Positions 10,469 to 58,101 of a stretch of 64,000 nt of DNA are shown one piece after another. This DNA comes from Colwellia sp. PAMC 20917 (lineage in GTDB: Bacteria > Pseudomonadota > Gammaproteobacteria > Enterobacterales > Alteromonadaceae). The position numbers and the translations under genes were made by a program. The notes beneath the pieces are model-generated. The model was not told the origin of the DNA. It saw only the letters and a list, made by a program, of their open reading frames with translations, and did not search any database. Where the stretch lies: contig NZ_CP014944.1 of assembly GCF_001767295.1 (NCBI RefSeq), forward strand, positions 1,798,001-1,862,000, given 5' to 3'. How positions within the stretch are numbered: the stretch's first letter is position 1; every line of letters starts with the position of its first letter.

Positions 10469-10525
10469 GATTTTTCCTAAATTTTATTAGTTTTCTGTCA
10501 ATTGTTAAATAAAAAACGCAAAAAT

Positions 10526-39985: not shown

Positions 39986-40011
39986 AGCTTTCATTTTTAA
40001 ATAGATGACTT

Positions 40012-40043: not shown

Positions 40044-40102
40044 GTCTTTAATTAACTCGATTCATTAATCAGCCAATCAAATTTTTCATAAAAGGACTTT
40101 CA

Positions 40103-40732: not shown

Positions 40733-40735
40733 GAC

Positions 40736-41905: not shown

Positions 41906-42749
41906 CTATTTGCGCCTTAAGGTTTGTTTTAAATAGCATAGACTGATCTGTATTATTGGTATTTATCCCTAGATTTTTAAATAACACTTTACAGCTTTCT
42001 TCATCAACCGATGACTGACAACTGTTTGCACGAGTTAATGTTATATCAGTAATTAATGCTGATAAATCAAACTCGATAGTAGTTATTAGTGAAGTGAAAG
42101 GCAAAGAAACGACAACTCGATTAGGGTACAAACATTCACTTTTTGGCGAACGAACAGGACTTAAGGCTTTGCAACCGGTAGAGCCTAAATGAAACAGCCA
42201 ATCATCATCGGGTGAAGCTAACTCTGCACGCATAAATTTGTGACCACCCTGCCATCCCCAGAACATTGAGGCTTCATTTAACGGGCTAGGCTGTGTTAAT
42301 GGGTTAAGGTGATTCAGTGCAAACGGCACACCTAAGGTAAAACGAATATCGGTTATAACACTAGCTTCATTTAGAGGGGTTAATTCAAGTTGCCAATAGT
42401 CTTGCTCACCTTCTTCATTACACACCTCTCCCAATAAGGCGACATTCTCTGCTTGATGAGCATTTGTTGTCATCGACCAGGGCTGCCAACCATTTTTTTT
42501 AGTGTTAACTTCAACATCATGTATAAAAAACTGTAATTGCTGATACTGCCAATTTTTTGAGGCCGCACCTAGGAGTTGTTCATTATTACCATTGAAGTGA
42601 CTGGCACAGTTCAAAGTAACCTGCTTATAAACCGGTTGAAAAGTGAGTGTTATTGGGGACTCGTTTTGAAAACATCCTGAAAGTAACGTAACACTTAACC
42701 CAAAAATAGTTGTGACAGATAAAATTTTTTTTAATATATAACAGTTCAT
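41898..42749 (-). CDS. MbnP-family copper-binding protein (four-Cys metallo-mystery protein)
   Basis: 283 residues with lipobox LLSGC at residue 26, so a likely lipoprotein. The mature sequence shows the MbnP pattern: QPVYKQVTLNCASHF, LQFFIHDVEVN, MFWGWQGGHKFMRAEL, FHLGSTGCKALSP and SECLYPNRVVV, with conserved cysteines in the order expected of this family. The motif MFWGWQGGHKF contains the tryptophan region where the partner could act. The four-base start is shared with the MbnH gene (ATGGTTAGCC inside its last codons). Copper binding is family knowledge. Confidence 0.85.
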   Translation of the reverse strand: MNCYILKKILSVTTIFGLSVTLLSGCFQNESPITLTFQPVYKQVTLNCASHFNGNNEQLLGAASKNWQYQQLQFFIHDVEVNTKKNGWQPWSMTTNAHQAENVALLGEVCNEEGEQDYWQLELTPLNEASVITDIRFTLGVPFALNHLNPLTQPSPLNEASMFWGWQGGHKFMRAELASPDDDWLFHLGSTGCKALSPVRSPKSECLYPNRVVVSLPFTSLITTIEFDLSALITDITLTRANSCQSSVDEESCKVLFKNLGINTNNTDQSMLFKTNLKAQIDG

Positions 42750-42891
42750 TTGAATAAGGCTTAATCGTTGAATGCAAAGTAATACTTACATGAAGTTAAG
42801 ATAATGTTAACGAGTTAGTTTTAAATTGTACGTTAACTTGCTATGGTAAAGCCATCAAATATTGAGCAGCTAAATAAAAAACGAGTACATT

Positions 42892-45651
42892 ATGGCTAAA
42901 ATATCATTACCTCTTGGCATTGCAATTATTTCAATATCTTATTTTTTACTCTCTTCAAATACATTAGCTCATTCAGAGCATGATAAGTCGAGGTTTGTTG
43001 CTGTTAATGGTGTAGATAAAGACCGCTGTGATAATGTTCTTAGACCCTGTAAAACAATTGCCTATGCTGTTAGCCAAGCAAACAAAGGTGATAACGTACT
43101 TGTTGCTTCAGGCGACTTTACAATCACTTCAAGCGAAGAACTATTTTATTTAAAAAGCGCTCTTGTGTCAGTCGTCGGAGGCTATAATCAATTTGATCAT
43201 TATCAATCGCAAAGCCCTCAGTCAAATGTGACCACTTTACATAATATTCCAATGGAAATGGTTGATGAGCTTCGCAGTAACGGTTTTAGCGTTATTGCAG
43301 ATGGTAAAGCCTTTGCTAAAGATAAAGATTTAAAACAAAAACTTGCAAGTTATTATCAACTCAGTGAAAGCCAAGCAAATGAACCTTGTGTTAATGGCAA
43401 AGCTGATATTTTTGACTGCAATAACATTGATTTACTCGCTCATTTCCCATTAACTGCAATGTCGAATGATCCAGTTGAAGGCAACGATATTTGGGGTCAT
43501 GTCGATTTAAATACGGGTAATGAATTTGCTATTATGGGCGTAAAAAATGGCGTTGTTGTGGTTAATGTTACAAACCCAACCACTCCTGTTGAAGTGGGCA
43601 CAATACCTGGAGTCACCTCAACATGGCGAGATGTAAAAGTTTACCAATACTTTGATGAAAATATCAATTTATGGCAAGCCTATGCTTATGTAACAACCGA
43701 AGGTGTTCGAAATGGTCCAACAGATTATGTGACTATTATTGACCTTAACAATCTTCCTCATTCAATAACCTTAGTTGAAAAGAATAAAGTGGTCAGTAGA
43801 GCCCATAATGTTTATATCACTAATGTTGATCATACCCTCAATATAACGCTTCCAGATCAAACAGCTTCACTACAACTTATTGGTACAAACACTAGAGGTG
43901 GAGCTTTCCAAAGCTATTCATTAGAAAACCCAAAAACATTAGTCAACGTTACTGCTAACAATTTTGGTAATGGCTACACCCATGATGGGGCTTCTCTTGT
44001 TATAGATGATCAGCGTTCTGTTAATGATTGTGGTTTAACGTCTGGGAGTTGTACTGTTTTCATTGATTTTAATGAAGACGTCATGAAGTTATGGAATATC
44101 ACCGATCCAAATGACTCAACCCAGTTAGGTACAGCTGAATATAACGACGTAGCTCCGAACAATAAATATGTACATTCTGGCTGGGGCACTGAAGATAAGC
44201 AGTTCATTTTATTACATGATGAATTTGATGAATTTCGTGGTGGATTAAATACCACCGTTAGAATATTTTCAATTGGGGACCTAACGAACCCATCACAGGT
44301 TGGCCAATGGACCGGTCCTACACAGGCGATTGATCATAATGGTTTTGTTCGAGGTAATAGATACTATATGTCTAACTACGAACGTGGTTTAACCATTTTA
44401 GACATTACGGATCCAACAACGCCTACTGAGGTTGGGTTCTTTGATACTTTCACACCGAGTAACTCAGCAAGCTTTAATGGTGCATGGGGCGTTTATCCAT
44501 TTTTACCGTCAGGAAATATTCTCGTTAGCGATATCAACAGTGGTCTGTATGTATTAAAAGATAACGCTAAAGCTTCAACGAAAGGAATGTTCAGCTTTAC
44601 CAGTAAAAGCACACAAACCGCTCAAGGAACAACACTAAACCTTATTGTGCAACGAAATGGTTCAGACATTACAGAAAGTGCTGCGGTAAGTTACCAAGTG
44701 ATTCAAGGTAGCGCCAAAAAAGGCACTGACTTTGATGTAGAAAACAACATACTCACTTGGGCTGCAAACGATAATACCAATAAGACAATAAGTATTGATA
44801 TCGCAGATGACCTAACAAATACCGAATTTTCAGAGTCTTTCTTTATACGTTTATATAATCCAACTAATGGTGCAACACTTGGTTCAAACAGTTACAACAC
44901 CATCAATATTACTGGGTTAATAGACAAAGGAACGGGAAGCTTTGAATTCGACGAGCAAACAATCGCAGAGAATGTTGATGAATACACCGTAAATGTTAAC
45001 CGAATGGGTAGCACATCGGGCAGTATTTCATTCCAATATCAACTGACTTCAGGACAAGCGATTATTGGTAGCGATATCATTGATGCATCGGGGCAAGTAT
45101 CTTGGGGCGAAGGTGAAAGTGATACTAAAAAAATTATATTAACCATTATTGATGATATTGAAGAAGAAGAAAATGAAACGTTCACCTTAACCTTATCAAG
45201 CATCGATAATAGTCGGTTAGGTAATAATGCTGAGATTATATTCACTATTGCTGATGATGATCAAAATACAGCACCTGTGGTTACCCTAAGAGAAAATTTT
45301 GAAGTAAATACTAATCAAGGTGTAACTTTAACGGCTCAAGCCATCGATGCAGAAAGCGACAGTATGACCTACTTATGGGAGCAAACAGCAGGCTCAGCGG
45401 TATCAATAACTAACGCTGATATGTTATCAGCTAGCTTTACAGCCCCAAATAACGCTACCTCGTTAACATTTAAACTTACCGCTACTGATTTCAGAGGTGC
45501 ATCAAGTACAGGAAGTGTTATTGTTTCAGTGGTCGCGCCCGTTGTAGTAACACCAACGCCCAACACACCAAGTAGCGGTGGCACAATATTATGGTTAACA
45601 ATCCTTTCATTATCTTTATTAACCAAGAGAAAAGTCATTATCAATAAATAG
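42892..45651 (+). CDS. Choice-of-anchor B family surface protein with Calx-beta repeats
   Basis: 919 residues with a signal peptide (ISYFLLSSNTLAHS). The first half contains a right-handed repeat-like segment and LVIVD-type repeats (DITDPTTPTEVGFF, NVTNPTTPVEVGTIPG, STWRDVKVYQYF). The second half contains two Calx-beta domains (for example FDEQTIAENVDEYTVNVNR). A PKD-like stretch and a C-terminal GlyGly-CTERM-like sorting signal (SSGGTILWLTILSLSLLTKRK) close the protein. It is divergent from the MbnP/MbnH pair. Its role is probably at the cell surface; a link to copper is only a guess from position. Confidence 0.78.
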   Translation: MAKISLPLGIAIISISYFLLSSNTLAHSEHDKSRFVAVNGVDKDRCDNVLRPCKTIAYAVSQANKGDNVLVASGDFTITSSEELFYLKSALVSVVGGYNQFDHYQSQSPQSNVTTLHNIPMEMVDELRSNGFSVIADGKAFAKDKDLKQKLASYYQLSESQANEPCVNGKADIFDCNNIDLLAHFPLTAMSNDPVEGNDIWGHVDLNTGNEFAIMGVKNGVVVVNVTNPTTPVEVGTIPGVTSTWRDVKVYQYFDENINLWQAYAYVTTEGVRNGPTDYVTIIDLNNLPHSITLVEKNKVVSRAHNVYITNVDHTLNITLPDQTASLQLIGTNTRGGAFQSYSLENPKTLVNVTANNFGNGYTHDGASLVIDDQRSVNDCGLTSGSCTVFIDFNEDVMKLWNITDPNDSTQLGTAEYNDVAPNNKYVHSGWGTEDKQFILLHDEFDEFRGGLNTTVRIFSIGDLTNPSQVGQWTGPTQAIDHNGFVRGNRYYMSNYERGLTILDITDPTTPTEVGFFDTFTPSNSASFNGAWGVYPFLPSGNILVSDINSGLYVLKDNAKASTKGMFSFTSKSTQTAQGTTLNLIVQRNGSDITESAAVSYQVIQGSAKKGTDFDVENNILTWAANDNTNKTISIDIADDLTNTEFSESFFIRLYNPTNGATLGSNSYNTINITGLIDKGTGSFEFDEQTIAENVDEYTVNVNRMGSTSGSISFQYQLTSGQAIIGSDIIDASGQVSWGEGESDTKKIILTIIDDIEEEENETFTLTLSSIDNSRLGNNAEIIFTIADDDQNTAPVVTLRENFEVNTNQGVTLTAQAIDAESDSMTYLWEQTAGSAVSITNADMLSASFTAPNNATSLTFKLTATDFRGASSTGSVIVSVVAPVVVTPTPNTPSSGGTILWLTILSLSLLTKRKVIINK

Positions 45652-45815
45652 TATCTAGGCAATAGTGATATAAAATCACCCGTATTGCCTAACAATTAAG
45701 CGAACAACGTAAAATTTAGCATTTTTTAAAAATACGCTAGTGACAACAAAATAAAAAATGCTTATACTTCACGCCGCTTTAAGTTGAAGTCTCAATTTAA
45801 AGCGGATAAAAAGAT

Positions 45816-45892
45816 GGCCCCTTAGCTCAGTTGGTTAGAGCATTCGACTCATAATCGACAGGTCCCCTGTTCAAGTCAGGGAGGGGCCACCA
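45816..45892 (+). tRNA. tRNA-Ile2 (CAU anticodon, decoding AUA)
   Basis: A complete 77-base cloverleaf from GGCCCC to CCA with anticodon loop ACTCATAA. CAU suggests methionine, but the acceptor GGCCCC...GGGGCC, the GACTCATAATC arm and TTCAAGTC match the lysidine-modified isoleucine tRNA of gammaproteobacteria better than elongator tRNA-Met. Its 3' part is the attachment site of the island that follows; the gene itself is intact. The TilS enzyme needed for the modification is elsewhere. Confidence 0.85.
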
Positions 45893-45899
45893 TTTTTAT
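45847..45899. repeat. attL: 3' part of tRNA-Ile2, 53-bp direct repeat
   Basis: The 53 bases from ACTCATAATCGACAGG to CACCATTTTTAT are repeated exactly at 54343-54395. They cover the tRNA anticodon loop to just past its CCA, a standard target for tyrosine integrases. This copy is part of the working tRNA gene. Confidence 0.9.
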
Positions 45900-46598
45900 A
45901 TAGCAAATTCAAATAGTTACCTCAAAATTCAAAACAAAAACAATACTCGGTCCCACCTCCGCTGGTCCATGGCTGGGGAAGTTAAATCTATAACAAACTC
46001 AACGCATAACTTTCGCTCAGCTCAAACACAAGTAAGTACTGCCGATCTCCATCAAATAACGCATCACAACTAAAACAATAGCCTAAACGCTACCACCTCA
46101 AATTCTCACATCAAAAAATACAATCCAATAGCCTCCCAAAAACAACACAAGTACCAGAAATAGACCTGACTAAAATTCATCACTCACCACAAGCACTGGT
46201 CAAATCAACATAGCCACGCCCATCAAGCACCTGCTGTGCTATAGCCCTAACGACTACCAATCCCAGTAGCAAGCCAATCATCCAAAAACAGCCAAAATCT
46301 CAAAGCTGCAACTTCACTGAGTGAAAATCAAATGCAGCAATGAATGAAACAACATTTTTAATTTTTTTCGCTGTCGCGAAGCATTAGAAAATGATTATAG
46401 AAATTCTTTTAATATTTAAAGATTAAGCGAAGCAGCCACTCCATTGGCTGAGCGTATTTTTCAAGATTCAAATCATTTTATAATTTATTGCTCCGTGCCT
46501 GAGCAGCTATTTACTCCCGAAACTAAATCTCTTTGAAATATATATGAAGTGATTGAGCTTACTACTTCTTAGTAGGCATTTAATTCTAGGAGAATAAT
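45900..46598. other. Gene-free left arm of the island with strong base skew
   Basis: Roughly the first 430 bp are very rich in C and A and poor in G on the plus strand (so G/T-rich on the minus strand), with no frame of coding type on either strand. Toward the end there is a TTCGC/GCGAA hairpin near 46368. A possible promoter for the peptide operon is not clear; AGGAG precedes its ATG. Function unknown; could be an integrase-binding or replication region. Confidence 0.5.
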
Positions 46599-46766
46599 AT
46601 GATCACAAATGATTTTGATTCCATCACGGTAGAGTCAAGTATGAGTGGAGCTATTGCGGGGGCTCTAGCTGGTGCACGTGCCGGTAGTGTTGTTCCAGGC
46701 ATTGGAACTGCTATTGGTGGTGTTGCAGGTGGTTTGATTGGCCTGATCTTTGGTCCAGTTGATTAG
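46599..46766 (+). CDS. Glycine-zipper peptide, microcin V-like candidate
   Basis: A 55-residue peptide missed by length cut-offs. AGGAG lies 7 bases before the ATG. Its first 15 residues (MITNDFDSITVESSM) are acidic and polar, and the rest is a glycine/alanine-rich hydrophobic stretch: SGAIAGALAGARAG, then VVPGIGTAIGGVAGGLIGLIFG. The GIGxAxGGVAGG core is close to that of microcin V (colicin V), and the glycine spacing (GxxxG) suits helix packing in membranes. There is no double-glycine leader of the usual form and no exporter nearby. It begins a three-gene operon; the next gene starts 9 bp later. A membrane-active peptide is my inference. Confidence 0.6.
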   Translation: MITNDFDSITVESSMSGAIAGALAGARAGSVVPGIGTAIGGVAGGLIGLIFGPVD

Positions 46767-46775
46767 GAGCTATTG

Positions 46776-47126
46776 ATGAAGACACTTACCTCTCTCGAAC
46801 AAATCCAGAGCCTTCCCCATTCACCTGAAGTACTGAATGCTTTATCAACTGAACTACTTCTACCGTTTGATACTACAAGTGCTACTGATGCCTTTTGGCT
46901 TGAGACTTCAACCACATTGCTCGTTGTATTGCCTGATGAATACACTGAGCAGTTACTTGATAATTTTAGTGAGGTTTTAGGTCAATTTACTTGTACTGAG
47001 TTTATCACTCAGCTTTCTGGTAATTGGTATTTAGCACTGACCATTACTTCACAAGATGGTGGTGGGCAATACCTTCTGTTTCCTTGTGAAAAGCATAGCC
47101 AGCTTTCGACCCTTCTGTTTACTTAA
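46776..47126 (+). CDS. Hypothetical island protein, 116 residues
   Basis: No family recognised. It starts MKTLTSLEQIQSLPHSPEV at the ATG after AGGAG, nine bases past the previous stop. It is a small acidic soluble protein with leucine-rich helices and a beta-like middle (LVVLPDEYTEQLL, WYLALTITSQDGGG). The position directly behind the glycine-zipper gene makes it an immunity-protein or partner candidate. A TTG one codon earlier is the only alternative start. Confidence 0.5.
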   Translation: MKTLTSLEQIQSLPHSPEVLNALSTELLLPFDTTSATDAFWLETSTTLLVVLPDEYTEQLLDNFSEVLGQFTCTEFITQLSGNWYLALTITSQDGGGQYLLFPCEKHSQLSTLLFT

Positions 47127-47145
47127 CCAACCAATGAGAAACACT

Positions 47146-47583
47146 ATGAATACTAAAACTGACACCAAAACAAAAGCCAAACCTGAAACCTCCCCTATTT
47201 CTATTTTGAAAACAGCCACCGCCAAAAAACTCAATCCAAAGCTTGATGGTGAATTGGAATACCAAATTGCCTTGATTGATGATGCTTTGCACTTGCGTAT
47301 TAGTAGTAATTCTTCAGGTGGTTTCTTTTCGAAGGAATGGCTATCACTTGAGAAGATTGAACAGTACTTCAATGACAATGTGAAAATTGACACTGATTTC
47401 AAAAGCAACTTACTCAAGCCACTTTTTGAACAAGGACACAGTAGCAACAACACGGGATTTCTATGTGCCTGTCTACGTGCTGAGCTTTTGTTATCCATCA
47501 GTTCGAAGAATGTATTCCTTCACCAATTTACAGGCGATTTTACTGCGTGGAACAAAACCCTCAACTTACTTGCAAAAACGTAA
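47146..47583 (+). CDS. Hypothetical island protein, 145 residues
   Basis: Third gene of the peptide operon, 19 bp after the previous one. It begins MNTKTDTKTKAKPETSP, a lysine/threonine-rich low-complexity tail of about 25 residues, then a folded-looking part (ELEYQIALIDDALHLRISSN, GFFSKEWLSLEKIEQYF). An upstream ATG four codons before (MRNTMNT) is possible, while the much longer frame from 47056 overlaps the previous gene and is rejected. No family recognised; possible second partner of the peptide. Confidence 0.5.
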   Translation: MNTKTDTKTKAKPETSPISILKTATAKKLNPKLDGELEYQIALIDDALHLRISSNSSGGFFSKEWLSLEKIEQYFNDNVKIDTDFKSNLLKPLFEQGHSSNNTGFLCACLRAELLLSISSKNVFLHQFTGDFTAWNKTLNLLAKT

Positions 47584-47755
47584 TGAAATGAGGTTTAGCC
47601 TTACTAATCATAAGTTAAACCTCATCCCCTCCTCGCATTATTTTTTGGCTATGTAAAAACCAACATATTATTGATGGGCAATTATGCCTGTATTTAGGAC
47701 TCCGGTCGATTGTCCGGTCTTTCCCTTTTTTTACTTTATATATAGGAAGAGTATT

Positions 47756-48949
47756 ATGGCTACTGCTAAAAGATTTAAGTTTTCAATGACACTAGTGAAT
47801 GAGTTACCTGCAACTGATGAAACTAGTGCAAGTCGTGAGACTGAGTATTCTGATTCGGCTTGTACTGGGTTACGGGTGATTGTTAATCGCAAAGGCATCA
47901 AACGCTTTTTATTTCGCTACAACTATCAGGGCAAGAAGCGTTCAATGATGATTGGCGAGTTAGGTGCATTTGATGTGAAAGATGCGCGATTGAAAGCTTA
48001 CGAGTTCAAACGATTGCTTGCTGAGGGTTTAGATCCGAAAACAGAGCGTGATTCAAAGCGTGCCGTTGCCACTTTCTATGAATTTGGTGAGGAGCATTAT
48101 TTACCTTATTCTATGGCGAACAAGTTGAGCTTTCGTAATGATGTCTCTATTTTGAAGAATTACTTCTACCCACTTTGGCGAGAAAGTAAATTGAATGCTA
48201 TTCAAACTCAGGAGATCCAACGTTTCATGGACAGTCTTTCTGGTAAGTTGAAACCTGCTAGCATCAATCGCATGTTGTCTTTGATCCATCGAATGCTAAA
48301 ACTTGCTTGTGAATGGGGTCATTTGACGACTAACCCTGCAAGTCATTTGAAAAAATTGAAGGAGAACAATCAACGTACTTTCTTTTTGAGTAGTGAGCAA
48401 ACCACTCGTTTATTGAAAAGCTGTGATGCAGATGGGAATCAAAGTGCTGCTAACTTTGTTCGCTTGGCTTTGCTGACCGGAATGCGAGCAGGTGAAATCT
48501 TGAATTCCAAATTGGAGCATCTAGAATTCCCTGACGGTGAAGCCAGTTTGTTTTTGCCTCACACGAAAGCAGGTCTTGCTCGCTCAGTACCTCTGAATGA
48601 AAGTGCGCTAGCCATTATCCGTGAGCAACAGCTTTTGATGAAGCCCAGCAACCCGTATTTGTTTGCGGGAAGATTCGGTGACAAGCCTATGTCTCATCCT
48701 AAAAAAGCTTTTCTGCGCATCAAAGAACGTGCTGGTGACTTAGATAAGTTACGTATCCATGATTTACGCCATTCATTTGCCAGTATCTTGATCAACTCTG
48801 GCTCTGCTTCATTGTACGATGTTCAGCATTTACTCGGACACCATTCAGCCCAAACTACGGAAAAATATGCACACTTAGCATCGGGTCGTTTACGTGATGT
48901 TAGTAGTCATGTTTCTGATTTTGTTGCTAACGCTGTAAGAGTTTCTTAG
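47756..48949 (+). CDS. Tyrosine recombinase / site-specific integrase
   Basis: 397 residues, start chosen at ATG 47756 with GGAAGAG upstream; the longer frame from 47684 has no support. The N-terminal part is of the P4-type DUF4102 arm-binding kind (RGKR-like FLFRYNYQGKKRSMMIGELG). The catalytic set is complete: Arg in LTGMRAGEI, then HDLRHSFAS, LGHHSAQTT and the nucleophile Tyr in TEKYAHLA. It is the enzyme that placed the island into tRNA-Ile2, whose att copies lie at 45847 and 54343. Confidence 0.93.
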   Translation: MATAKRFKFSMTLVNELPATDETSASRETEYSDSACTGLRVIVNRKGIKRFLFRYNYQGKKRSMMIGELGAFDVKDARLKAYEFKRLLAEGLDPKTERDSKRAVATFYEFGEEHYLPYSMANKLSFRNDVSILKNYFYPLWRESKLNAIQTQEIQRFMDSLSGKLKPASINRMLSLIHRMLKLACEWGHLTTNPASHLKKLKENNQRTFFLSSEQTTRLLKSCDADGNQSAANFVRLALLTGMRAGEILNSKLEHLEFPDGEASLFLPHTKAGLARSVPLNESALAIIREQQLLMKPSNPYLFAGRFGDKPMSHPKKAFLRIKERAGDLDKLRIHDLRHSFASILINSGSASLYDVQHLLGHHSAQTTEKYAHLASGRLRDVSSHVSDFVANAVRVS

Positions 48950-48955
48950 TACTAA

Positions 48956-48980
48956 CCCAAGACTTGTTGTGAGTCTTGGG
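48956..48980 (+). terminator. Hairpin after the integrase gene
   Basis: Stem CCCAAGACT/AGTCTTGGG with a short loop, followed by a T-rich stretch at 48984-48998. It ends the integrase transcript. Confidence 0.7.
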
Positions 48981-49297
48981 GATTATTTTGCTTTTTTTTA
49001 TCTTACTTTTAGCCTCTGTTGAATTTATGTAAAACTGCGAGTATCGCGTTTAAACGGTACTGAGACAGCGGTAAAAATAGTTGTTCTATATCTCCCTTGT
49101 GCGGAATTCTCGTTCTTTCTAGGGGGGGATTTGAACGATATAGACACCTTGTAATCGTTTTATCCAAAACTTATTTTTAACTTGGTGTTCATTAATTATA
49201 TTGCTACATATCAAACAGTTAAGTTAAATAAAGCATTTTACAAGGCCGTATTCTTAGCGCATAATCCTTTTACTTTTTGCTGTGTGAGACTTAACCC
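48981..49297. other. 317-bp spacer between integrase and helicase
   Basis: No gene of coding type and no clear repeat seen. It presumably carries the helicase promoter. A self-complementary CGTTTAAACG near 49043 is the only obvious small palindrome. Confidence 0.4.
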
Positions 49298-51244
49298 ATG
49301 ACTGTCGTTACCGATTTTACCTTAGCTAAAAACCAATACATTTCAGACTTAGATGTTGAAGTGAAGCATCAGCTTACTCATCTAGAAGCACCAACAGGAC
49401 GAGGCAAAACCACTTACATTGTGAACAAGCTATCGAAGCGGTCAAAAATCATTATGGTTTGCCCTGTCAATGTGCAAGTCAAACAACTTGCTCATGATTT
49501 TAGAGATAATCACAAGGTGCAATGCATCACCAGTGATGATAAATCTAACAGTTTGCATGGTGACATTATTATTTGTGTGTATGATCAATTAACTAAGATT
49601 TTGGATTCTGGAATTCACCCTAGCCATTATGTACTTGTCATTGATGAAGCTCACAAGCTCTATCAGGCTGCTAATTACCGAAGCAAGGCGTTGTCTGTTT
49701 TATTAGATGCTATTTCTGATGGGGTTTTCAAGCAGGTACTAACGGTCAGCGCAACATTTCAACCTGATATATTTCCGTTTGATTTTGACGAACAGATTGT
49801 GATCAAGCATGAACTAGATCAAAAGCCAGCGTGTGACGTAGTTTTTCATAAAAAGAAAGACTTTATGGATCAATATCTACTTTCTGCCCTTCCCAGTAAA
49901 GGTCAGATTTCGATTATCCGCTTGAACAACAAAGAGCAAATCAAACATGCCAAGCTTTGCTTCGAACAGCAGAATCTACGTGTGTTTGAAATACATAGCG
50001 ACAACCAGAAATCTCCCGAAGTTATCAAGTTCCTTGAAACAAGTTTGATTGGTGACTATGACATTGTGCTAACTACGTCATTGCTAGATGAAGCAATCAA
50101 CATCAAAAATACCAACATTGAGTCTATTCATGTTTACCACAAGTTACATTCTGATGAGATAAACCAATTTATTGGTAGAACCCGAAAGTCTCAGCCGCAT
50201 GTTCACTTACATCTGCTTGAAAATGAACTTAACCGAGAAGATATAGATATCGCAAAAGAGCGCAGGAAAGTTGAAGATTTGTGTGATTCAGCATTAACTT
50301 ATTGCCTGAACATTACAGAAAAACCAAGTCAATTTTCCCGAGTAGTGACTGACATTAATATGACCACTAAATCTTGCCAACGTTTTGAACCTTTATTTTA
50401 TGATTACCGTGAAGGAGTAGAACCTAGTGTGAACAACGTGTCGATACTCGCGAAGCTTTATGAGATTTCGATGGAAGCACAGTATGTTAATGATGATTCA
50501 TTGAAATATGCTCTGCTTTGTACTAACTGCTTTAGTAGCGTTGATATTTTTGATTCTGGTATTACAGGTGAAAATGAAGAAATTGATGGCATTATTGAAC
50601 AGGCCAGTGCAATGCAAGCATCTACTCGTGTTGCTGCTGTCGATGAATGCGCTTTAGAAATTGGTGCAACTGCGGACAACATTAGTAATGTATCTATGGA
50701 TGATATCGATACGTTAGCTCAATCACTCACTAATACAGGCATCAAAGGTGAAATTTCAAAAGAGTGGCTTGGTCTTTGCCAAATACTTTCTGTTGCTGAT
50801 GCCTTAGATGCCGTTCGAAATAATCGAACAGCTGAGATTTGGGCATTTCAAAAATCAGTTGAGCACTTTATTCATCTCCGATCTTTTTTTGATGTTTTGA
50901 AAGCTGACTTAAAAGTGCATGGTCAAGTGAAACTGGTAGGCTCTGATAATATAAATAAGTATTTTATTAAAACACTTAGCCAAGTAGCCAAAGAGCAAAA
51001 AGGCTTTAAAAAATTCATTAAGAAGTTAAATATTAGTGGCATTGAAGTGCTTGAAAATAATAAATTCAAGGTGAGCAACCGCTTTATCTATAAGCTTATT
51101 CGAGAGTGTACCGATGGTGAACTTTATCGTTCAGGTGGTGTGCCTCAATTTACTATTACTAGAATTGGTCCGTTTGGTTATGATTATAATATTAATGTGC
51201 TTCGGCATTCGAGTAATCAACCGAGAGTTCGAAGAGTTGCTTAA
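49298..51244 (+). CDS. SF2 DEAH-type helicase of the island
   Basis: 648 residues. Walker A reads EAPTGRGKTT near residue 32, Walker B/DEAH is VLVIDEAH, motif III is SAT (LTVSATFQ) and motif VI is QFIGRTRKSQPHVHLHLLE. The N-terminal half is thus an active helicase-like ATPase; the C-terminal 250 residues match no family I know. The layout suggests an origin-binding or replicative helicase of a mobile element (such as the herpes UL9-like group) or a defence helicase; which one is open. It faces the acyltransferase gene tail to tail. Confidence 0.75.
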   Translation: MTVVTDFTLAKNQYISDLDVEVKHQLTHLEAPTGRGKTTYIVNKLSKRSKIIMVCPVNVQVKQLAHDFRDNHKVQCITSDDKSNSLHGDIIICVYDQLTKILDSGIHPSHYVLVIDEAHKLYQAANYRSKALSVLLDAISDGVFKQVLTVSATFQPDIFPFDFDEQIVIKHELDQKPACDVVFHKKKDFMDQYLLSALPSKGQISIIRLNNKEQIKHAKLCFEQQNLRVFEIHSDNQKSPEVIKFLETSLIGDYDIVLTTSLLDEAINIKNTNIESIHVYHKLHSDEINQFIGRTRKSQPHVHLHLLENELNREDIDIAKERRKVEDLCDSALTYCLNITEKPSQFSRVVTDINMTTKSCQRFEPLFYDYREGVEPSVNNVSILAKLYEISMEAQYVNDDSLKYALLCTNCFSSVDIFDSGITGENEEIDGIIEQASAMQASTRVAAVDECALEIGATADNISNVSMDDIDTLAQSLTNTGIKGEISKEWLGLCQILSVADALDAVRNNRTAEIWAFQKSVEHFIHLRSFFDVLKADLKVHGQVKLVGSDNINKYFIKTLSQVAKEQKGFKKFIKKLNISGIEVLENNKFKVSNRFIYKLIRECTDGELYRSGGVPQFTITRIGPFGYDYNINVLRHSSNQPRVRRVA

Positions 51245-51251
51245 AGCAATG

Positions 51252-51286
51252 ATGGTACAGTCAAGGTTAGTTTTGAACTGTACCAT
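51252..51286 (+). terminator. Hairpin after the helicase gene
   Basis: Arms ATGGTACAGTCAA and TTGAACTGTACCAT pair with one bulge around a short loop. It follows the helicase stop by seven bases. Confidence 0.6.
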
Positions 51287-51455
51287 TCAGACGAATAAAA
51301 ATCATCAGTAGGTATAAGATTTACTCGATCTCCACTGCTCCAAAATCAAGGGTCGAGCAATAACTACTCACTTCAGTTATTTCCACATTCGAGACATTAA
51401 ACATTTATCTGATACTAGTACGTAGGATTAGATCTTGTATCGATAACGCGTAATA

Positions 51456-53483
51456 TCAGTGTCGTACGCTGGAATACTTTATTAGACTATTTTGTCCTAC
51501 GATTTCAATAGATAAACCATTAAATACTTCATCAAAAGCCTGTGATACATATTCAGAACCAAATGTTGATAGATGGTCATCATCTCGATACAGAGTAACC
51601 CCACCTATAGCCACTTTACAATAGCTTGAATCACAAAGAATAATGTCAGGAGCAACTAGTCCTATATTAAGTCGGTCTTCTAATTGACGAAAAATAGTTC
51701 CTACCTCTTCAGTCCTTTCCCTATACTCTTCTGTCGTTGGGGCAATTACTACATTTATATCTCGCCCTGTTATGTTTGCAACCTTAAGTGCGTAAGGGAC
51801 ATCAAAACCGACTTCTGGTACAGGATTAACAAGAACAACCTTTTTACCCAAGCTCTGTAGTTTTTCAATAGTCCTCATTAACCCGATCTCAAACAGTTTG
51901 ATGTTAGTTAAGTTATTTGAACTTGGCGTGTCAAGATCAATTAACTGAACAGACTTACCTGATTCTTGTTTATACCGCGTTCCTTTAGTGGATAACGCCC
52001 ATCTCGCTGCCAATATAACGGTCTCTATTTCAGGTGTAACTGATATAAGCTCTAAAACCGTTTGATTAAACTCGTTGCAAGAAGTCCTGTTTGGTCTTTC
52101 TATAGATAACAAAGGCGGGCAAGCACTCTGTGTAGCAATTTTACCTCTTAAGCCTATCTTTAAAGCACTCAAATTAATACCGGAAGCTAATGCTCTTGCG
52201 TGAGAGTCCCCCCAAAAAATAAAATTGGTACGTCCAGTTTTTGCTCCAATATTACAGAGGCTCTGGCCATTCTTGATCCTATTAACCACTTTTTCACATC
52301 TTGCCCAGTGGTGCCACTTATCTTCCTCTTCAGAAATCGCGGCTATATCATTTGTTGACCTATGAGGATACCCAGCATTCATAATTAAAACCATTCCACT
52401 TACGACAATAGCTACGGAAACTCCTGTAGAAGCTAAAAGAAGAGAGCGCCTACCTTCAAAAAAGGTTTTTTTCCTAAAAGGAGACTCAATATATTTCCAT
52501 GAAAGAATTGATAAAGTAAGTATTAAAGCAAGCATAAACATCATTACAGGTACTGTAGGTTCTGTTATGGACAAAATTTTGGTATACACAATTACTGGCC
52601 AATGCCACAAGTACAATGAGTAGGAAATTAAGCCGACAAAGACTACAGGGCGTAAACTCAATGCTTTATAAATAAAAGAATCTCCCCCAGATCCAGAATG
52701 AATAAGTAAAGCTGTTCCAATCGTCGGTAATAAGGCTGCGAATCCAGGGAAAGATGTTTCAGACGTATATACAAATACGCTAAACGCTATCATCGCTATT
52801 CCAAGTATGGAATTAATTTCCCGGATATAACGTTTTGAGGGGCTAGGTATAACATGAAGGGCGAGGATACTTCCTATAAATAGCTCCCAAGCCCTAGTCG
52901 GTAACCAATAAAAAGCTGCCGAAGTACTAATATTGATCAATATTATGCCCGTAATGAAGGATAAAATTCCAAGAATGATCAACCATCTTAAGTAATGTTT
53001 GGTATCTTTTTTCGCAATCAACATTAATAGTAGAGGGAAAAATATATAGTATTGTTCCTCAACAGCTAATGACCAAGTATGCAATAAGGGCTTCATTTCA
53101 GATGCACCACCGAAATAGCCTGACTCAAAATAAAACAACATGTTTGATGAGAATAGTGCTGTAGTTATAGCACTTTGTCCGAGACTGGTAACACCGTCAG
53201 GTGGTAATAATAATAAGCCAACAATTAGACTAACAGCAATAACAACAACTAACGGAGGGAGTATTCGTCTAAATCGACGTTCGTAAAACTTTGCTATTGA
53301 AAAGTCATTATTAGCTATCTCACGAACAATAATTGTTGTAATAAGATACCCTGAAATTACAAAAAACACATCAACTCCGATATAGCCCCCACTAAAAATA
53401 GAAACACCAGAGTGAAAAAACAATACCGACAGTACTGCTATTGCTCGCAAACCATCAATATCCGATCGATATTTGGGCGTCAT
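51456..53483 (-). CDS. Acyltransferase-3 / SGNH polysaccharide O-acyltransferase
   Basis: 675 residues. The N-terminal part is the Acyl_transf_3 membrane domain: YRSDIDGLRAIAVLSVLFFH with the conserved His, about ten hydrophobic spans, and the RRFRRILPP motif. The C-terminal 250 residues are an SGNH hydrolase-type domain, with FWGDSHARALA (block I Ser) and DDDHLSTFGSEYV (catalytic Asp/His). This fusion is typical of O-antigen and surface polysaccharide acetylases. In an island, altering the surface could block phage adsorption or change serotype; that is inference. The gene runs opposite to the rest of the island. Confidence 0.9.
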   Translation of the reverse strand: MTPKYRSDIDGLRAIAVLSVLFFHSGVSIFSGGYIGVDVFFVISGYLITTIIVREIANNDFSIAKFYERRFRRILPPLVVVIAVSLIVGLLLLPPDGVTSLGQSAITTALFSSNMLFYFESGYFGGASEMKPLLHTWSLAVEEQYYIFFPLLLMLIAKKDTKHYLRWLIILGILSFITGIILINISTSAAFYWLPTRAWELFIGSILALHVIPSPSKRYIREINSILGIAMIAFSVFVYTSETSFPGFAALLPTIGTALLIHSGSGGDSFIYKALSLRPVVFVGLISYSLYLWHWPVIVYTKILSITEPTVPVMMFMLALILTLSILSWKYIESPFRKKTFFEGRRSLLLASTGVSVAIVVSGMVLIMNAGYPHRSTNDIAAISEEEDKWHHWARCEKVVNRIKNGQSLCNIGAKTGRTNFIFWGDSHARALASGINLSALKIGLRGKIATQSACPPLLSIERPNRTSCNEFNQTVLELISVTPEIETVILAARWALSTKGTRYKQESGKSVQLIDLDTPSSNNLTNIKLFEIGLMRTIEKLQSLGKKVVLVNPVPEVGFDVPYALKVANITGRDINVVIAPTTEEYRERTEEVGTIFRQLEDRLNIGLVAPDIILCDSSYCKVAIGGVTLYRDDDHLSTFGSEYVSQAFDEVFNGLSIEIVGQNSLIKYSSVRH

Positions 53484-54342
53484 AAATTTTCCTATTGATT
53501 ATTATGAAGGTTTCTTAGTAATAAAATTCCATTTGATTAGTATTAATATCTCATAGTTTCAATGTTTTAAAAACCCAAATATTTAAGTGTTATCAAAACA
53601 GGGTTAATACTGGGGGTCTCTGTAATAACCCTATCTTGAATGTCGTTTGATTAAAATATTGATACTATTGTTAATAAACTGATCGATGTGTGTTACTAAT
53701 ACCTCTCAGTAACATGTCAGAATTTATTCATTAGAAAATATAAGGGGAAATTTTTCAAGTTAGCTTTCGCGCACAAAGTGAATATAGTAATCTATAGCAC
53801 TTTGCTGAATCTTTACTATATTTTCCCTCTACACTGACGTTGAACCTTAGTAGGTTTTTCAAGTTTTTGGATTGCTGCAGTTTTTGAGGTGAACATTAGC
53901 AACTTCGTAGTCACGTTACCGCTCTACTGCGTTTCCACTTGTTATGAACCTTTATTCCATACTCATTTTACTTTCACTTCGCGCCAGTTTTGAGGGCGCG
54001 CGAATCGAATGCAAATTGAGTATGTTTTTGTGGGTAGGCTGACGCCTGTTGCTGTGTGCTTTTGCGGTTTTGTGCTTCTGATGCGTTTTTTGGTTGGTTG
54101 TTGGTATTCTACTTCTGATCAACCGAACTCATTGCTCTAGACTACTTTCTGCTTGTTTCTGGATTTTCAGCATTGAATCTGAAACCTGAGAGTTGATGGT
54201 CAGCGATCTGCTCCGGTCTTTCTCCGGTACTTTGCTTTTGTTATTACATTTATTAGCTATTTTATTGTTTGGAGGACAAATCAACAAATTCATAGCATCA
54301 GCATTCCCTTGTACCTGTTCACCATTGCATCAGTCACCCTTT
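53484..54342. other. Gene-free right arm of the island with nested hairpins
   Basis: No plausible gene on either strand. From about 54000 the plus strand is rich in G and T, the reverse of the left arm. Hairpins: AGGGTTA/TAACCCT at 53600-53632, TGTTACT/AGTAACA at 53691-53714, and a nested stem at 53957-54024. The acyltransferase promoter must lie at the left end. Confidence 0.5.
53957..54024. repeat. Nested inverted repeat in the right arm of the island
   Basis: Outer arms CATACTCA (53957-53964) and TGAGTATG (54017-54024) enclose inner arms CGCGCC (53979-53984) and GGCGCG (53994-53999). The inner part is the most GC-rich stretch in the neighbourhood. A cruciform-forming site of this kind could be an origin, a protein-binding site or a small RNA. 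Confidence 0.6.
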
Positions 54343-54395
54343 ACTCATAATCGACAGGTCCCCTGTTCAAGTCAGGGAGGGGCCACCATTTTTAT
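54343..54395. repeat. attR: 53-bp copy of the tRNA-Ile2 3' end
   Basis: Exact repeat of 45847-45899. It lacks the 5' half of the tRNA, so it is not a second gene but the far attachment site of the island. Confidence 0.9.
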
Positions 54396-55110
54396 CAGTA
54401 CTTACAACGTAATTACCCACTAACATAAAAATTCTACACCTCATTTTTAGTCAAGTAATTAGTCAAATAACAACGTTGTACTCCCCTTATAATACATTAT
54501 AAATAATCATGTATATAAAGCACGCCCAACTTCATCAAATAACACAGGTGCATGTGCGATATGTCTTACAGTATGAGTGGCTGCCTATTAGACCGTAGTT
54601 AAGCTCATTGCCAATAGCTGGCATCAACAGATAACTGATACTGCTTCATCTCGTTTCTGTGACGCTGGAGTAAGAGCTGGGTGACAAGAGTGCAGTTTTA
54701 CATCATTGTACGACCTTTAAGGTTATTACAACGATCATTTAAAGCCATAAAACCTTTAAGCAATACCAATGCTTCACTAAAAGATTTAAACCGTTAAAAA
54801 GATCTAAAACCGCACCTATTTAATCATTTTTTACTATACGTTGACGATATATTAGTTATTATAACTTAAAGTATTTAAGAGCTGCATAAATGGAATTTTA
54901 CGAAGTCGAACCAACGTTAGACAATTACTGGCGATAAATTATACTGTTTGGTCGTAACGTTATCTATTAACAACACATTGAAAAAGCTAACATTTAATAT
55001 ATGAAAAGGAAAATATTTTAAGAGTTGCTTTTTAAATTGTACTTATGTAAAGTTCTGTCGACTCAGGGATGAAGCGTCTCAGGGATATATTTAATAAAGG
55101 ACTCTATAAG
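54396..55110. other. Accessory spacer after the island
   Basis: 715 bp of AT-rich DNA without an intact gene; it includes the 15-codon remnant at 54890 and a promoter for the lipoprotein gene. The composition suggests repeated insertion and decay next to the tRNA. Confidence 0.4.
54890..54978 (+). pseudogene. 5' remnant of a gene starting MEFYEVEPTLDNYWR
   Basis: A start ATG and MEFYEVEPTLDNYWR are followed directly by TAA; the same frame continues IILFGRNV, then stops again. The pattern EPTLDNYWRAIILFGRNVAS is, as I recall, the N-terminus of a family of HNH-type nucleases, but this is from memory. A stop in place of the Ala codon and loss of the remainder mark it as dead. Confidence 0.45.
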
Positions 55111-55473
55111 ATGAAATTAAAAGTTATACTTACTTTAGCTATTGCGACTATATTCGCATCTGGCTGTTCAACAATTCTCACAGATGATACTCATAAAATG
55201 AATGTTTCTACCAGTAATGGTAAAAAAATTGATGTCGAAGTTGATGGGAACATTCAGACTGTACCGGGTATAGTAAGTGTGAAAAAAGAAAATAAAGATA
55301 AAATCTTAATCACTAAAGACGCGGCTTGCACAAGTAATACTGCATTAAACAAAGAAGTGGAGACTACATTCTTCGTAAATCTTCTTTCTGGTGGTGTTTT
55401 TGGTTCTAGTACTGATTATGGGACAGATAAAATGTGGAAATACCAAGATTCAGTGACTATTAGCTGCAACTAA
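55111..55473 (+). CDS. Small lipoprotein, partner of the DUF4105 gene
   Basis: 120 residues from MKLKVILTLAIATIFASGC; the lipobox ASGC gives a lipid-anchored mature protein of about 100 residues. AAGGA precedes this ATG, and the longer frame from 55069 adds 14 residues before the signal peptide. The mature part contains TDDTHKMNVSTSNGKKIDVE and near the end SGGVFGSSTDYGTDKMWKY, not matched to a family by me. It stops three bases before the DUF4105 gene, so they are probably one operon. Confidence 0.75.
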   Translation: MKLKVILTLAIATIFASGCSTILTDDTHKMNVSTSNGKKIDVEVDGNIQTVPGIVSVKKENKDKILITKDAACTSNTALNKEVETTFFVNLLSGGVFGSSTDYGTDKMWKYQDSVTISCN

Positions 55474-55476
55474 AGT

Positions 55477-57324
55477 ATGTACCACTTATTATTTAAAGGA
55501 AGCCTATTTGCTTCCTTTTTTATATGTAATTTTAGCGTCTATGCTTTATCATCAAACGTTACATCGTCTGTTAAAGATACCAGCGAATTGGTTGAACATT
55601 CGAAAAAAACAGTACTTTTTGAACACCCGATTTGGCAAGCGATTCTCCACGTAAAAAACGGGCAACCAATCAATTCTAACTATGATCGCTACCTAAGTGC
55701 TAACAGTTTTTCAGTAGAAAAAGAAATGGCGTTAACCCTTGAATTGATTCTTAATGACAAACAAAGTCAATGTAACTATCCCGCTAGAATAAATTTTTTA
55801 AAAGAATTTTTGGATTTTAATGAGACAATAGATTTAAGTCATTGTGATAGCTATCAAGAGTATTTACAAAAAGTACCAATTACTGATATTTATTTAATAT
55901 ACGCTTCGGAAAACGTAATGAATGCCAGTTCGATGCTAGGTCATATTATGCTGAGGATGGATGGTATCAATGATAAAGGTTTAAACGTAAGCCACGGCAT
56001 CACTTTTTTCACTGAACTAGAAGGTTTTAATATTCCTAAAATCCTTTATGATAGTTTAGTCACGGGAAAAAAAGGTATTTTTCAAATAGCCCCTTACTCT
56101 GATTTTGTAAATAACTATTTAAACATTGAACTAAGAAACGTGTGGGAGTATAAACTTTCATTATCAGATATTCAAAAGAAGCTTATTCGGGATATTGCTT
56201 GGGAGCTCGGCAGTACTGATTTATCATACTTCTTTCATACTTATAATTGTGCCACAGTTACTCAATTATTAATTGCTAGCTCCTTACCAGAGAAAATTCC
56301 CACATTACAATCATGGCTAACACCTCTAGACGTTGTTCATTTCGTCGAGGAGAATAATTTAGTAGAGAAGACCAATCTTATCCCATCAGAAGAATGGGAA
56401 CTACGTGCATTAATTGATAACTTACCACAAGAGGTAATAGCCAAAGCAATACAGTCAGTCCATAGTGCAAATATTGATTTGAGAACGATTTATTCGGAAA
56501 GAGACAAATTGCTGACCATAGCATTTTACAAAGCTTACAATAAGTTTTCCGTGAGAAAAAATTTAATCAATAACGACGTTTATGAGAGTAACAATGTAAA
56601 AATTGAGCAATTAATGACAAGACTGCCCAATTTTCAGCTTGAAGTAAGTGATTATAAAATGCCAACTGCTGCCTCACCTGATGGACAAGTTGCTGTTGGT
56701 TGGCGAAATGAAAATAAAAAAGACTGGCTGTCAATTAATCTATTTCCTGTGGCAAGTCATCAAGGCGATAACAAAAAACACGTTTTTGGGGAAACAACAC
56801 TTACACTTGCATCTCTTGATATATTGTATAATCCTGAATCTAACAATATTAAACTTGATAATTTTATTGCCTATTCTATGCATTCTATGATCCCTTATGA
56901 TAATACATTAAAAGGGTATTCAACGGGTTTTCGATTTGGGTTAGAGAGACATCATGATGTTAAGCTTAATAAAAAGTTAAATGCCTTTATAGAAGGAAAA
57001 CTTGGATTTACTTATGAATTTAGCCAAGACATCGGAGTATATGCTGAAACTGCACTAGGTATTGGTAGTGACAGCAACTCAACATACTTGTATACAACAC
57101 CACAATTAGGAGCATACGTATATTTAATTGGCGACATAAAATTACATGTTCAGAATAGTATTAGTTTTAATAAGCAAAAGTCCGATCTTGCCTTAAATAC
57201 ATCGTCACTCTTTCTTGACTGGCAAATTAAAAGAGACTTATATCTGTCTGCTGATTACATCAAATATTGGAATTCTATTAAATCAACTAAGTCATATGGG
57301 ATGCGTTTAAGATATAGGTTTTAG
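55477..57324 (+). CDS. DUF4105 (Lnb N-terminal-like) protein with C-terminal beta-barrel
   Basis: 615 residues with a signal peptide (LFASFFICNFSVYA). The region ENVMNASSMLGHIMLRMDG and later FHTYNCATVTQLL, with a His and a Cys at the expected places, match the DUF4105 domain. The last 250 residues are rich in beta strands and end RLRYRF, so an outer membrane barrel is likely. DUF4105 proteins are thought to be cysteine-hydrolase-like; the substrate is unknown. Coupled to the small lipoprotein upstream. Confidence 0.8.
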   Translation: MYHLLFKGSLFASFFICNFSVYALSSNVTSSVKDTSELVEHSKKTVLFEHPIWQAILHVKNGQPINSNYDRYLSANSFSVEKEMALTLELILNDKQSQCNYPARINFLKEFLDFNETIDLSHCDSYQEYLQKVPITDIYLIYASENVMNASSMLGHIMLRMDGINDKGLNVSHGITFFTELEGFNIPKILYDSLVTGKKGIFQIAPYSDFVNNYLNIELRNVWEYKLSLSDIQKKLIRDIAWELGSTDLSYFFHTYNCATVTQLLIASSLPEKIPTLQSWLTPLDVVHFVEENNLVEKTNLIPSEEWELRALIDNLPQEVIAKAIQSVHSANIDLRTIYSERDKLLTIAFYKAYNKFSVRKNLINNDVYESNNVKIEQLMTRLPNFQLEVSDYKMPTAASPDGQVAVGWRNENKKDWLSINLFPVASHQGDNKKHVFGETTLTLASLDILYNPESNNIKLDNFIAYSMHSMIPYDNTLKGYSTGFRFGLERHHDVKLNKKLNAFIEGKLGFTYEFSQDIGVYAETALGIGSDSNSTYLYTTPQLGAYVYLIGDIKLHVQNSISFNKQKSDLALNTSSLFLDWQIKRDLYLSADYIKYWNSIKSTKSYGMRLRYRF

Positions 57325-57401
57325 GTATCTTTGTGATACATACGAGTTGACCTTTAGTTTAATCATATACCTTCGAAAACGCCTTAAAAGCTTAATAATA
57401 A

Positions 57402-57426
57402 AACTGCCCACTAACAGTGAGCAGTT
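57402..57426 (+). terminator. Hairpin after the DUF4105 gene
   Basis: Arms AACTGCCCACT and AGTGAGCAGTT with a short AAC loop, 77 bp past the stop. No long T-tract. Confidence 0.5.
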
Positions 57427-57485
57427 GACTTAAAGAGCAATCGATAAGTTATGTCTACAAATCGTACTTAGCTGTTGTTTTATAA

Positions 57486-58101
57486 GTAAGCGTCTGGGGA
57501 AATACATATAGCCTTACTTGAAGTTCCAAGGCAGCAGATGAGTAAGGCTTTCAGGCTTGTTAGCAAGTTCATCTAGACAAAATTGTAAATAGTTGTCGAC
57601 CAGCAAACCGTTGGCTTTTGCTGTTTCAATTATGCTATAGAGTATGGCGCTAGCCGTTGCACCTCGTTCGGTATTGGAGAATAGCCAATTTTTTCTGCCA
57701 ATGACAAACGGCTTTACTGCTCGTTCTGCACGATTATTATCAATGTTTATACGACCATCTTTTAAGTAGGTGGTAAGCTTATGTGCTTGATTGCACCAAT
57801 AAGTCATCGCTTCCCCAAGTTTGGTTTTCGGTGGTACTTTCTCTTTATTGTCGATAACCCAACCATGAAGCTTATCGATAATAACTTTAGATTTCTCTTG
57901 CCTAGTTAGGTATTTTTCTTCAGCAGTTTTTCCTTTCAAGCTCGCTTCAATGCCGTAGAGTTTACCTATTAGATTTAAAGCAACATCAGCTTTGCCAGTT
58001 TTCTTTTTCCTTGCACTGTTTTAGCATCAATGAATTTTCGACGAGCATGCGCCATACAGCCAGCCAATATAGCCTCAGTTTTTCCATATGCAGCATAAGT
58101 G
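57486..58101 (-). pseudogene. IS66 family transposase fragment
   Basis: The open part 57514-57939 carries DGRINIDNNRAERAVKPFVIGRKNWLF and SAILYSIIETAKANGL, the C-terminal signature of IS66 transposases. Further 5', in a frame shifted by one near the A-rich stretch at about 58005, GCMAHARRKFIDAKT and TGKADVALNLIGKLYGIEAS continue the same protein. It is cut at about 58100. The edge at 57486 begins GTAAGCGTCTGGGG, fitting the GTAA-start inverted repeat of IS66. The other end and accessory genes are missing, so the element is dead. Confidence 0.85.

Follow-up and report, generated by a model that had tools for sequence, protein, structure and literature searches.

Islands that enter tRNA genes through tyrosine integrases with an Arm-DNA-bind_3 domain, which we take to be the "P4-type" integrases, are among the described systems closest to the element reported here. 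This element is an island of ~8.5 kb in a 64,000-nucleotide stretch of Colwellia sp. PAMC 20917 (NZ_CP014944.1, positions 1,798,001 to 1,862,000 of the forward strand), hereafter called the window, from whose first letter positions are counted. It resembles those islands in its integrase, in its direct repeats over the 3' part of a tRNA gene and in its variable content, and differs from them by a conserved operon of three small genes (PEP, ORF2 and ORF3) before the integrase gene (INT). No paper naming such an operon before an integrase turned up in our literature search.

PMC9710591 describes pipolins as elements with a tRNA site, a tyrosine recombinase and restriction-modification (R-M) genes. 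Our loci share these features with pipolins and other self-replicating integrative elements, and islands in a sister clade of the window integrase also have a polymerase of their own. However, those polymerases belong to family A and are not piPolB, and the window island gave no polymerase match, either in a profile search or among its proteins by Pfam.

The yeast 2-micron plasmid (Flp/FRT) offers a further comparison; its FRT sites lie in long inverted repeats. The sister-clade islands are like this plasmid in having two opposite recombinase sites that split the element into halves, but they are bacterial and chromosomally integrated at a tRNA gene, and their inversion or amplification is a prediction. 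FLP, the divergent FRT sites and copy number are treated in PMC5495485, as is the ability of a tRNA or phage integrase (Thermococcus pTN3, phage HK022) to invert DNA between opposite att sites; integrase-made inversion and inverted copy-control sites are thus already known. In the pTN3 and HK022 cases the sites were placed experimentally or scattered in the chromosome, whereas the inverted attP of the sister islands is their own and lies within matching arms. No such island was found described in the literature searched, which left most subscription journals and all bioRxiv preprints outside.

A repeat-bounded island in a tRNA gene

The region is quite likely a small integrative mobile island in a tRNA gene with a CAT anticodon, with the small operon and a helicase gene (HEL) as its core and a membrane O-acyltransferase gene (AT3-SGNH) as its cargo. 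Its features are as follows.

45816..45892, + strand: tRNA gene with CAT anticodon, the insertion target (ARAGORN; Rfam RF00005, 67.6 bits), its 3' part being attL
45847..45899, + strand: attL core, copy 1 of the exact 53-bp direct repeat (repeat search)
45900..46598, no strand: left end, ~0.7 kb without an open reading frame (ORF) >=40 aa, by position a putative integrase-arm or regulatory region
46599..46766, + strand: PEP, 55-aa glycine-zipper peptide, with family members near other ORF3 genes (see below) and an orthologue in Neptunomonas
46776..47126, + strand: ORF2, 116 aa (phrog_32947, 2e-14, a family of unknown function)
47146..47583, + strand: ORF3, 145 aa (phrog_28971, 2e-19, a family of unknown function)
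47756..48949, + strand: INT, 397-aa tyrosine recombinase with arm-binding domain (PF00589, 1.5e-28; PF13356, 8.6e-14)
48956..48980, + strand: terminator-like hairpin after INT, 11 pairs
49298..51244, + strand: HEL, 648-aa SF2 helicase (PF04851, 3.7e-9; PF00270, 8.9e-9) with APTGRGKT, DEAH, SAT and QFIGRTR motifs
51456..53483, - strand: AT3-SGNH, 675-aa membrane O-acyltransferase, cargo (PF19040, 1.6e-53; PF01757, 5.4e-33)
53484..54342, no strand: right end, ~0.86 kb with short ORFs only (maximum 76 aa)
54343..54395, + strand: attR core, copy 2 of the exact 53-bp direct repeat (repeat search)

A reading made earlier from the letters of the window (the sequence-only reading) had claimed that exact 53-bp direct repeats bound an 8.5-kb tRNA island, and this was confirmed. 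The two copies are spaced 8496 bp start to start; 46 bp of the repeat correspond to tRNA positions 32-77 and the remaining 7 bp lie 3' of the tRNA. Taken with the tRNA call, these are direct att repeats that restore the tRNA. The first 40 bp occur exactly twice in the window's own genome (G000; 4,683,314 bp, one contig), and a reversed-pattern control occurred zero times. An exact 53-bp repeat starting in the anticodon loop is not a product of chance. ARAGORN labels the tRNA, the only one in the window, as Met; we presume that it is the one called Ile2. An Rfam scan of the region found nothing besides this gene, and the G+C content of the island (0.34-0.42 in 1-kb bins) was near the flank values (0.33-0.39).

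INT would recombine the attP of an excised circle with the tRNA gene, most likely at the anticodon loop, and integration would restore the tRNA with the island's own 3' half and leave the 53-bp repeats. As the earlier reading had it, an integrase within the element, an SF2 helicase and an AT3-SGNH protein were clear by Pfam. The INT motif residues R244, H335, R338 and Y371 are present by inspection, and an alternative start is possible at 47684. The statement of the earlier reading that phage and conjugation genes are absent also held: no phage-structural, relaxase or packaging gene was found, and for the six island proteins Pfam, PHROGs and NCBIfam gave no capsid, terminase, relaxase or type IV secretion system (T4SS) match apart from the weak PEP matches given below; by Pfam, none of them is a transfer gene.

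In an alignment of 12 members, ORF3 has the invariant residues N55, G59, S62, F85, S99, N101 and F105, without a conserved contiguous stretch. PEP gave weak glycine-rich matches to tape-measure, DNA-ejection, TraT and other families (best 6.7e-6), which we read as probable low-complexity matches. Among PADLOC models, HEL had weak matches to Cas3 and DinG (best 4.1e-9), an expected result for a helicase of the SF2 type; PEP matched one model at 0.00098, and the other four proteins matched none. A search of PDB sequences with HEL gave nothing usable. Terminator-like sites in the region numbered 9, compared with 5.3 expected from shuffles. Because the promoter scan gave fewer sites (11) than shuffles (24.3), no promoter site was used.

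Other islands, integrase relatives and the small operon

The 45-bp core (<=2 mismatches) was found in five of six genus genomes, twice in G000 and G004, once in G001, G003 and G005, and not in G002. The G004 island, 18.6 kb long and with direct cores, encodes a serine recombinase and another integrase besides ORF3 and a VapE-domain protein. In G001 (L199, 8148-18801), a different integrase (PF00589, 2.8e-29) lies 0.17 kb behind the same tRNA, and a type I R-M set (HsdR, HsdS, HsdM) follows farther on; this is another defence-type island. Because different islands, with content unlike that of the window, occupy this tRNA in G001 and G004, the genes are not fixed at the site in all relatives. 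Together with the varying content of the relatives described below, these islands support the mobile tRNA island that the sequence-only reading had proposed. Behind the tRNA of G003 and G005, no integrase was found by profile in stretches of 18-20 kb; by eye, the sequence there is similar to the left-end sequence of the islands in G004 and G001, so that neither site need be empty, and G003 was dropped as a candidate empty site because of its likeness to the left end of the G004 island. Upstream of the tRNA, the window (36272-45651) encodes dnaG, rpoD (Pfam) and a large LVIVD/Calx-beta protein; of these, rpoD recurs upstream in G001 and G003, and the LVIVD/Calx-beta protein recurs in those two genomes and in G004.

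At E<=1e-90, INT was found in 8 of 394 genomes of the order, its own included, and in 1 of 369 genomes of the class, its own. Named relatives among the best 80 matches were Neptunomonas qingdaonensis (61-62%), Salinivibrio siamensis, an uncultured Ferrimonas, Vibrio mytili, Photobacterium proteolyticum and a Vibrionaceae metagenome-assembled genome (MAG), with Agitococcus more distant (40%). In a tree of 20 rows, the window INT paired with that of Neptunomonas (93/87, under the 95/80 mark), and the sister group comprised 11 others (97/98); the split INT of Photobacterium was not among the rows, and its similarity and inverted arms are the grounds on which we count it in the sister group. N. 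qingdaonensis has the same PEP-ORF2-ORF3-INT order next to a CAT tRNA; its rpoD lies 0.8 kb ahead of PEP. At this locus (L089), the tRNA 5' half (7987-8036) stands behind rpoD without its 3' half; 3.3 kb from it, on the other side of the integrase, is an intact CAT tRNA (11331-11407) in opposite orientation. The expectation that the same integrase and helicase would recur with varying cargo held for the integrase type, which was found with other cargo, but among the loci compared a HEL relative was seen only in the Agitococcus island.

ORF3 was detected in 7 of 40 near relatives, the window's own genome included, with several copies in some, and in at least 26 of 394 genomes of the order (E<=1e-5, own included), a lower bound, as only part of the first-look candidates were scored. 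We searched with profiles the surroundings of 39 ORF3 places (the window plus 37 loci, some clipped by contig ends; G011 gives two identical copies). As raw counts, a tyrosine integrase or serine recombinase lay <=2 kb away on the same strand in 27 places and on either strand in 28, and 11 were recombinase-free within 2 kb. ORF2 was <=1 kb away in 26 of the 39, a DUF2787 protein (PF10980) <=1 kb in 23 and PEP <=3 kb in 11. Two layouts were seen. In one, ORF2-ORF3-DUF2787 comes after the integrase, and the tRNA genes called nearby are mostly tRNA-Leu; in the other, ORF2-(ORF3)-(DUF2787) comes before it, mostly near a CAT tRNA. The window INT falls among the integrases of the latter layout.

In all 14 INT-clade loci, ORF2 is on the same strand and <=1.2 kb upstream of INT, directly adjacent in 8. 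Because ORF2 lies close to integrases in two different layouts, we propose that it works together with the integrase, most likely as a directionality factor or a regulator. Since the small genes recur beside integrases and keep the same four-gene order in Neptunomonas, the PEP-ORF2-ORF3 operon looks like core mobility machinery rather than cargo; in the island, the three genes would form a small operon preceding the integrase, with ORF2 partnering INT. A literature search on DUF2787 gave, judged by title, no paper on mobile elements.

A second ORF2-ORF3-DUF2787-PEP set is present in the window's own genome (L018, G000:C1:248200-268199; module at 9395-11110), next to a 900-aa family B DNA polymerase (PF03175, DNA_pol_B_2; 6500-9202), two integrases and a tRNA-Leu(TAA) array; this locus looks pipolin-like. 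An identical ORF2-ORF3-recombinase set at both ends of one 2.5-Mb G011 contig (L026, L027) would reflect tandem islands or an assembly overlap. L028 (7448-11665) has 4.2 kb between direct copies of the tRNA core, with an ORF3 relative inside and no integrase found by profile.

The sole HEL relative among 224 loci is that of the Agitococcus island (32% over 324 aa, E 8e-43). It lies 0.84 kb behind INT with a 144-aa ORF between, ORF3 is upstream, and a copy resembling a tRNA 3' half stands just beyond it. HEL would most likely serve replication or maintenance of the excised form, and we assign it to the core rather than the cargo with moderate confidence.

Several observations weigh against a mobile island whose core comprises the small operon and HEL. 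No certain empty site was seen among the six genus genomes, and we infer the excised circle, and with it the excision and integration reaction, from the repeats and the integrase. The proximity figures for ORF3 and integrases are raw counts. ORF2 was not detected in the Agitococcus locus, and neither ORF2 nor ORF3 has a DNA-binding domain by Pfam or a PDB relative in profile searches. Co-transcription of ORF3 and INT is not certain because a 173-bp gap with a weak terminator-like site (47704-47719) separates ORF3 from the INT start. At E<=1e-8, the other 393 genomes of the order contain no HEL relative, and the 40 near relatives gave one weak match (23%, E 2.4e-4); our confidence in its core status is only moderate because it depends on the one distant relative in Agitococcus.

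Inverted attachment sites in the sister clade

We tested 46 stretches for inverted repeats >=60 nt; most were 17-20 kb long, so wider repeats could be missed. Ten had such a repeat, and all ten are loci of the INT clade. The Neptunomonas repeat is only 64 nt and comes from the two tRNA halves. Long inverted arms bound the INT segment in 9 of the 12 sister loci, namely G071 (L085 and L063), G202 (L086 and L076), G386 (L190, L075 and L189), G024 (L087 and L023), L093, L094, L090, L081 and L191. The other three (G187, Ferrimonas and V. mytili), with INT contigs of 3.5-5.4 kb, are undecidable; G187 (L080) shows a shorter arm pair. Lengths and identities of the inverted arms around INT are as follows.

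G071: 939 nt, 99.8%
G202: 788 nt, 96%
G024: 712 nt, 98.7%
G237: 840 nt, 99.9%
G174: 423 nt, 100%
G386: 682 nt, 100%
Salinivibrio: 363 nt, 98.6%
Photobacterium: 887 nt, 73%
Vibrionaceae MAG: 924 nt, 93%

In three loci the arms have diverged to 73-96% identity, which speaks against an assembly artefact. The G237 and G174 contigs end inside the arms, with no core visible.

Three islands (G071, G202 and G386) are complete from the tRNA to the outer att site and share one order: attR, DNA-polymerase segment, intact-looking inverted attP, integrase segment, tRNA. Their three cores stand as tRNA 5' half-core-B, A-core-B inverted, and A-core-other flank, and A-core-B is what an intact attP should look like. 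Followed site by site, each of these islands has two recombinase sites, inverted, within inverted repeats. A fourth alternating core is present in G024, whose outer end lies beyond the 40 kb examined. The simplest account would be an excised sister circle with two attP sites in opposite orientation.

The segment between the outer att and the internal attP encodes a protein matching a family A DNA polymerase profile, built from two Pfam-confirmed members, in G071, G024, G202 and G386. The G174 and G187 contigs also have a match, as does L064, an island with another integrase near tRNA-Leu. The protein next to the polymerase in G071 and G202 gave only sub-threshold AAA/RNA_helicase matches, and the INT segment of the sister islands carries cargo. 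The polymerase segments of G174 (L079) and G187 (L080), 95.5% identical, have opposite orientations relative to the arm next to the internal attP; this suggests an inversion but could be a draft-assembly join, since the two genomes are drafts whose inverted arms of ~200 nt are nearly identical. The direction of INT argues against frequent flipping, as it is toward the tRNA in each of the four islands where it can be read (G071, G024, G202 and G386). In Photobacterium proteolyticum (L093, 5804-13096), an INT segment with 73% inverted arms and a split INT has chromosomal-looking neighbours, and no tRNA was called in the locus.

The window island has no inverted repeat >=60 nt (window 42001-58000) and only two direct cores. 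A hidden third att core was rejected, since the best local score (11) stayed below the mean of 50 shuffles (11.6; maximum 14). The left end shows no similarity to the sister arms beyond the core, and the one match of the window arms beyond it is marginal: a short near-repeat at 54211-54233 in the right end resembles the inner end of the A arms in G202 and G024 (21-26 nt, E 0.009) and is possibly a candidate integrase arm site.

Tentatively, the sister branch of the INT lineage may be a bacterial counterpart of the 2-micron plasmid, a possibility that we hold with less than even confidence. Two opposite attP sites would divide a half with the polymerase and a putative-helicase P-loop protein from a half with INT, ORF2 and cargo; one attP would be spent on tRNA integration, and the other would stay intact and inverted inside the island. 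INT with ORF2 could then invert one half relative to the other, turn the excised circle to double rolling-circle amplification, or exchange the cargo half with that of another island. On this view, the islands of the window and of Neptunomonas would belong to a one-site branch.

Cargo, rival explanations and significance

AT3-SGNH is the one clear cargo gene of the island. It matches phrog_6705 ("O-antigen acetylase", 2.4e-167) and fits an O-acetyltransferase in its fused PF01757 and PF19040 domains and in its catalytic residues: R13, H24, S427, D634 and H637 (motif) align by eye with the OafA residues R14/H25/S412/D587/H590, as given in PMC7448272. That paper also states that enzymes of this type alter O-antigen and can affect phage interactions. 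The protein is thus like OafA/OafB and the phage O-antigen acetylases in domains and residues, but it is carried by a non-phage island. It has matches in 76 of 50,697 phage records, 18 of them covering >=80% of the protein, with 30-40% identity in the 15 rows listed; its relatives include proteins annotated as O-antigen acetylases in Pseudomonas and Salmonella phages. By prediction from its family, AT3-SGNH may O-acylate a surface glycan and could change phage or immune recognition.

The island relatives appear to carry R-M and abortive-infection genes in its place. The Agitococcus island has HsdM, AbiD, HsdS and HsdR (type I R-M plus AbiD), and the Salinivibrio island an N6/N4 methylase and a SmaI-like enzyme. 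Near the Neptunomonas INT are HsdM, HsdS, PrrC and HsdR (type I R-M plus PrrC), on the far side of the intact tRNA, and their membership in the element is not certain. Speaking against pure defence, the sister cargo proteins scanned with Pfam include one Eco57I-type methylase, one JmjC protein, one FRG-domain protein and one protein (L063:879) without a family. A defence role for the island is plausible but indirect, and that of its own cargo is predicted. The sequence-only reading had spoken of an unusual cargo; this stands for AT3-SGNH but not for PEP-ORF2-ORF3 and, less surely, HEL, which look core-like by their recurrence beside integrases. Its further idea that acyltransferase, helicase and peptide act together found no support, as they are not one conserved unit.

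Among the rival explanations, an element or plasmid remnant that a conjugative element mobilizes in trans, with HEL as a plasmid-type replication helicase, seems unlikely. HEL has six weak plasmid matches, the best to an Acinetobacter plasmid (28% over 45% of HEL) and four to Clostridioides plasmids, and the long gene-free ends could hold an oriT. However, those six plasmids are typed as non-mobilizable, and Pfam gave no relaxase or T4SS gene, with the sub-threshold TraT match of PEP set aside and no oriT search made.

Similarly doubtful is a bacteriocin/immunity or toxin-antitoxin cassette, in which PEP, ORF2 and ORF3 would be true competition cargo. PEP is like glycine-zipper membrane peptides and weakly matches Bacteriocin_IIc, but its score of 16.1 bits is below the cut-off of 27.1, inspection revealed no double-glycine leader, and the island has no exporter gene; a class II bacteriocin was rejected as the main reading of PEP on its score and the lack of an exporter. 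Moreover, at 28 of the 39 ORF3 places (some contig-clipped) no PEP lies <=3 kb away, and ORF2 and a recombinase are mostly kept.

We consider it improbable that the island is a phage satellite that depends on a helper phage for induction and packaging and uses HEL and the small operon for replication and interference. The small size, the integrase, the helicase and the lack of own capsid genes would fit, as would the matches of ORF2 and ORF3 to PHROG families 32947 and 28971. Nevertheless, Pfam, PHROGs and NCBIfam gave no AlpA, primase, terminase or packaging gene, ORF2, ORF3 and DUF2787 had no match in the 50,697 phage records, and HEL had only weak matches there, to two Clostridioides phages. 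Pattern scans of IMG/VR gave 12 INT matches, all partial except for two long ones of 29% identity, and no HEL relative. The label "satellite-like" in the earlier reading thus found no positive evidence. Least probable is a dead island, an ancient insertion kept only for its acyltransferase: its occurrence in one genome only and its gene-poor ends would suit this, but the repeats are identical, the six genes open and the motifs intact.

The reading as a mobile tRNA island moves unnamed small genes from "cargo" to "probable mobility machinery". ORF2, ORF3 and DUF2787, with or without the glycine-zipper peptide, mark integrase-bearing islands in many genomes of the order and in some others, and they are candidates for the missing integrase directionality factor. 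With the sister islands it becomes testable whether a bacterial integrase may flip or amplify the island that carries it by way of an internal attP in inverted orientation.

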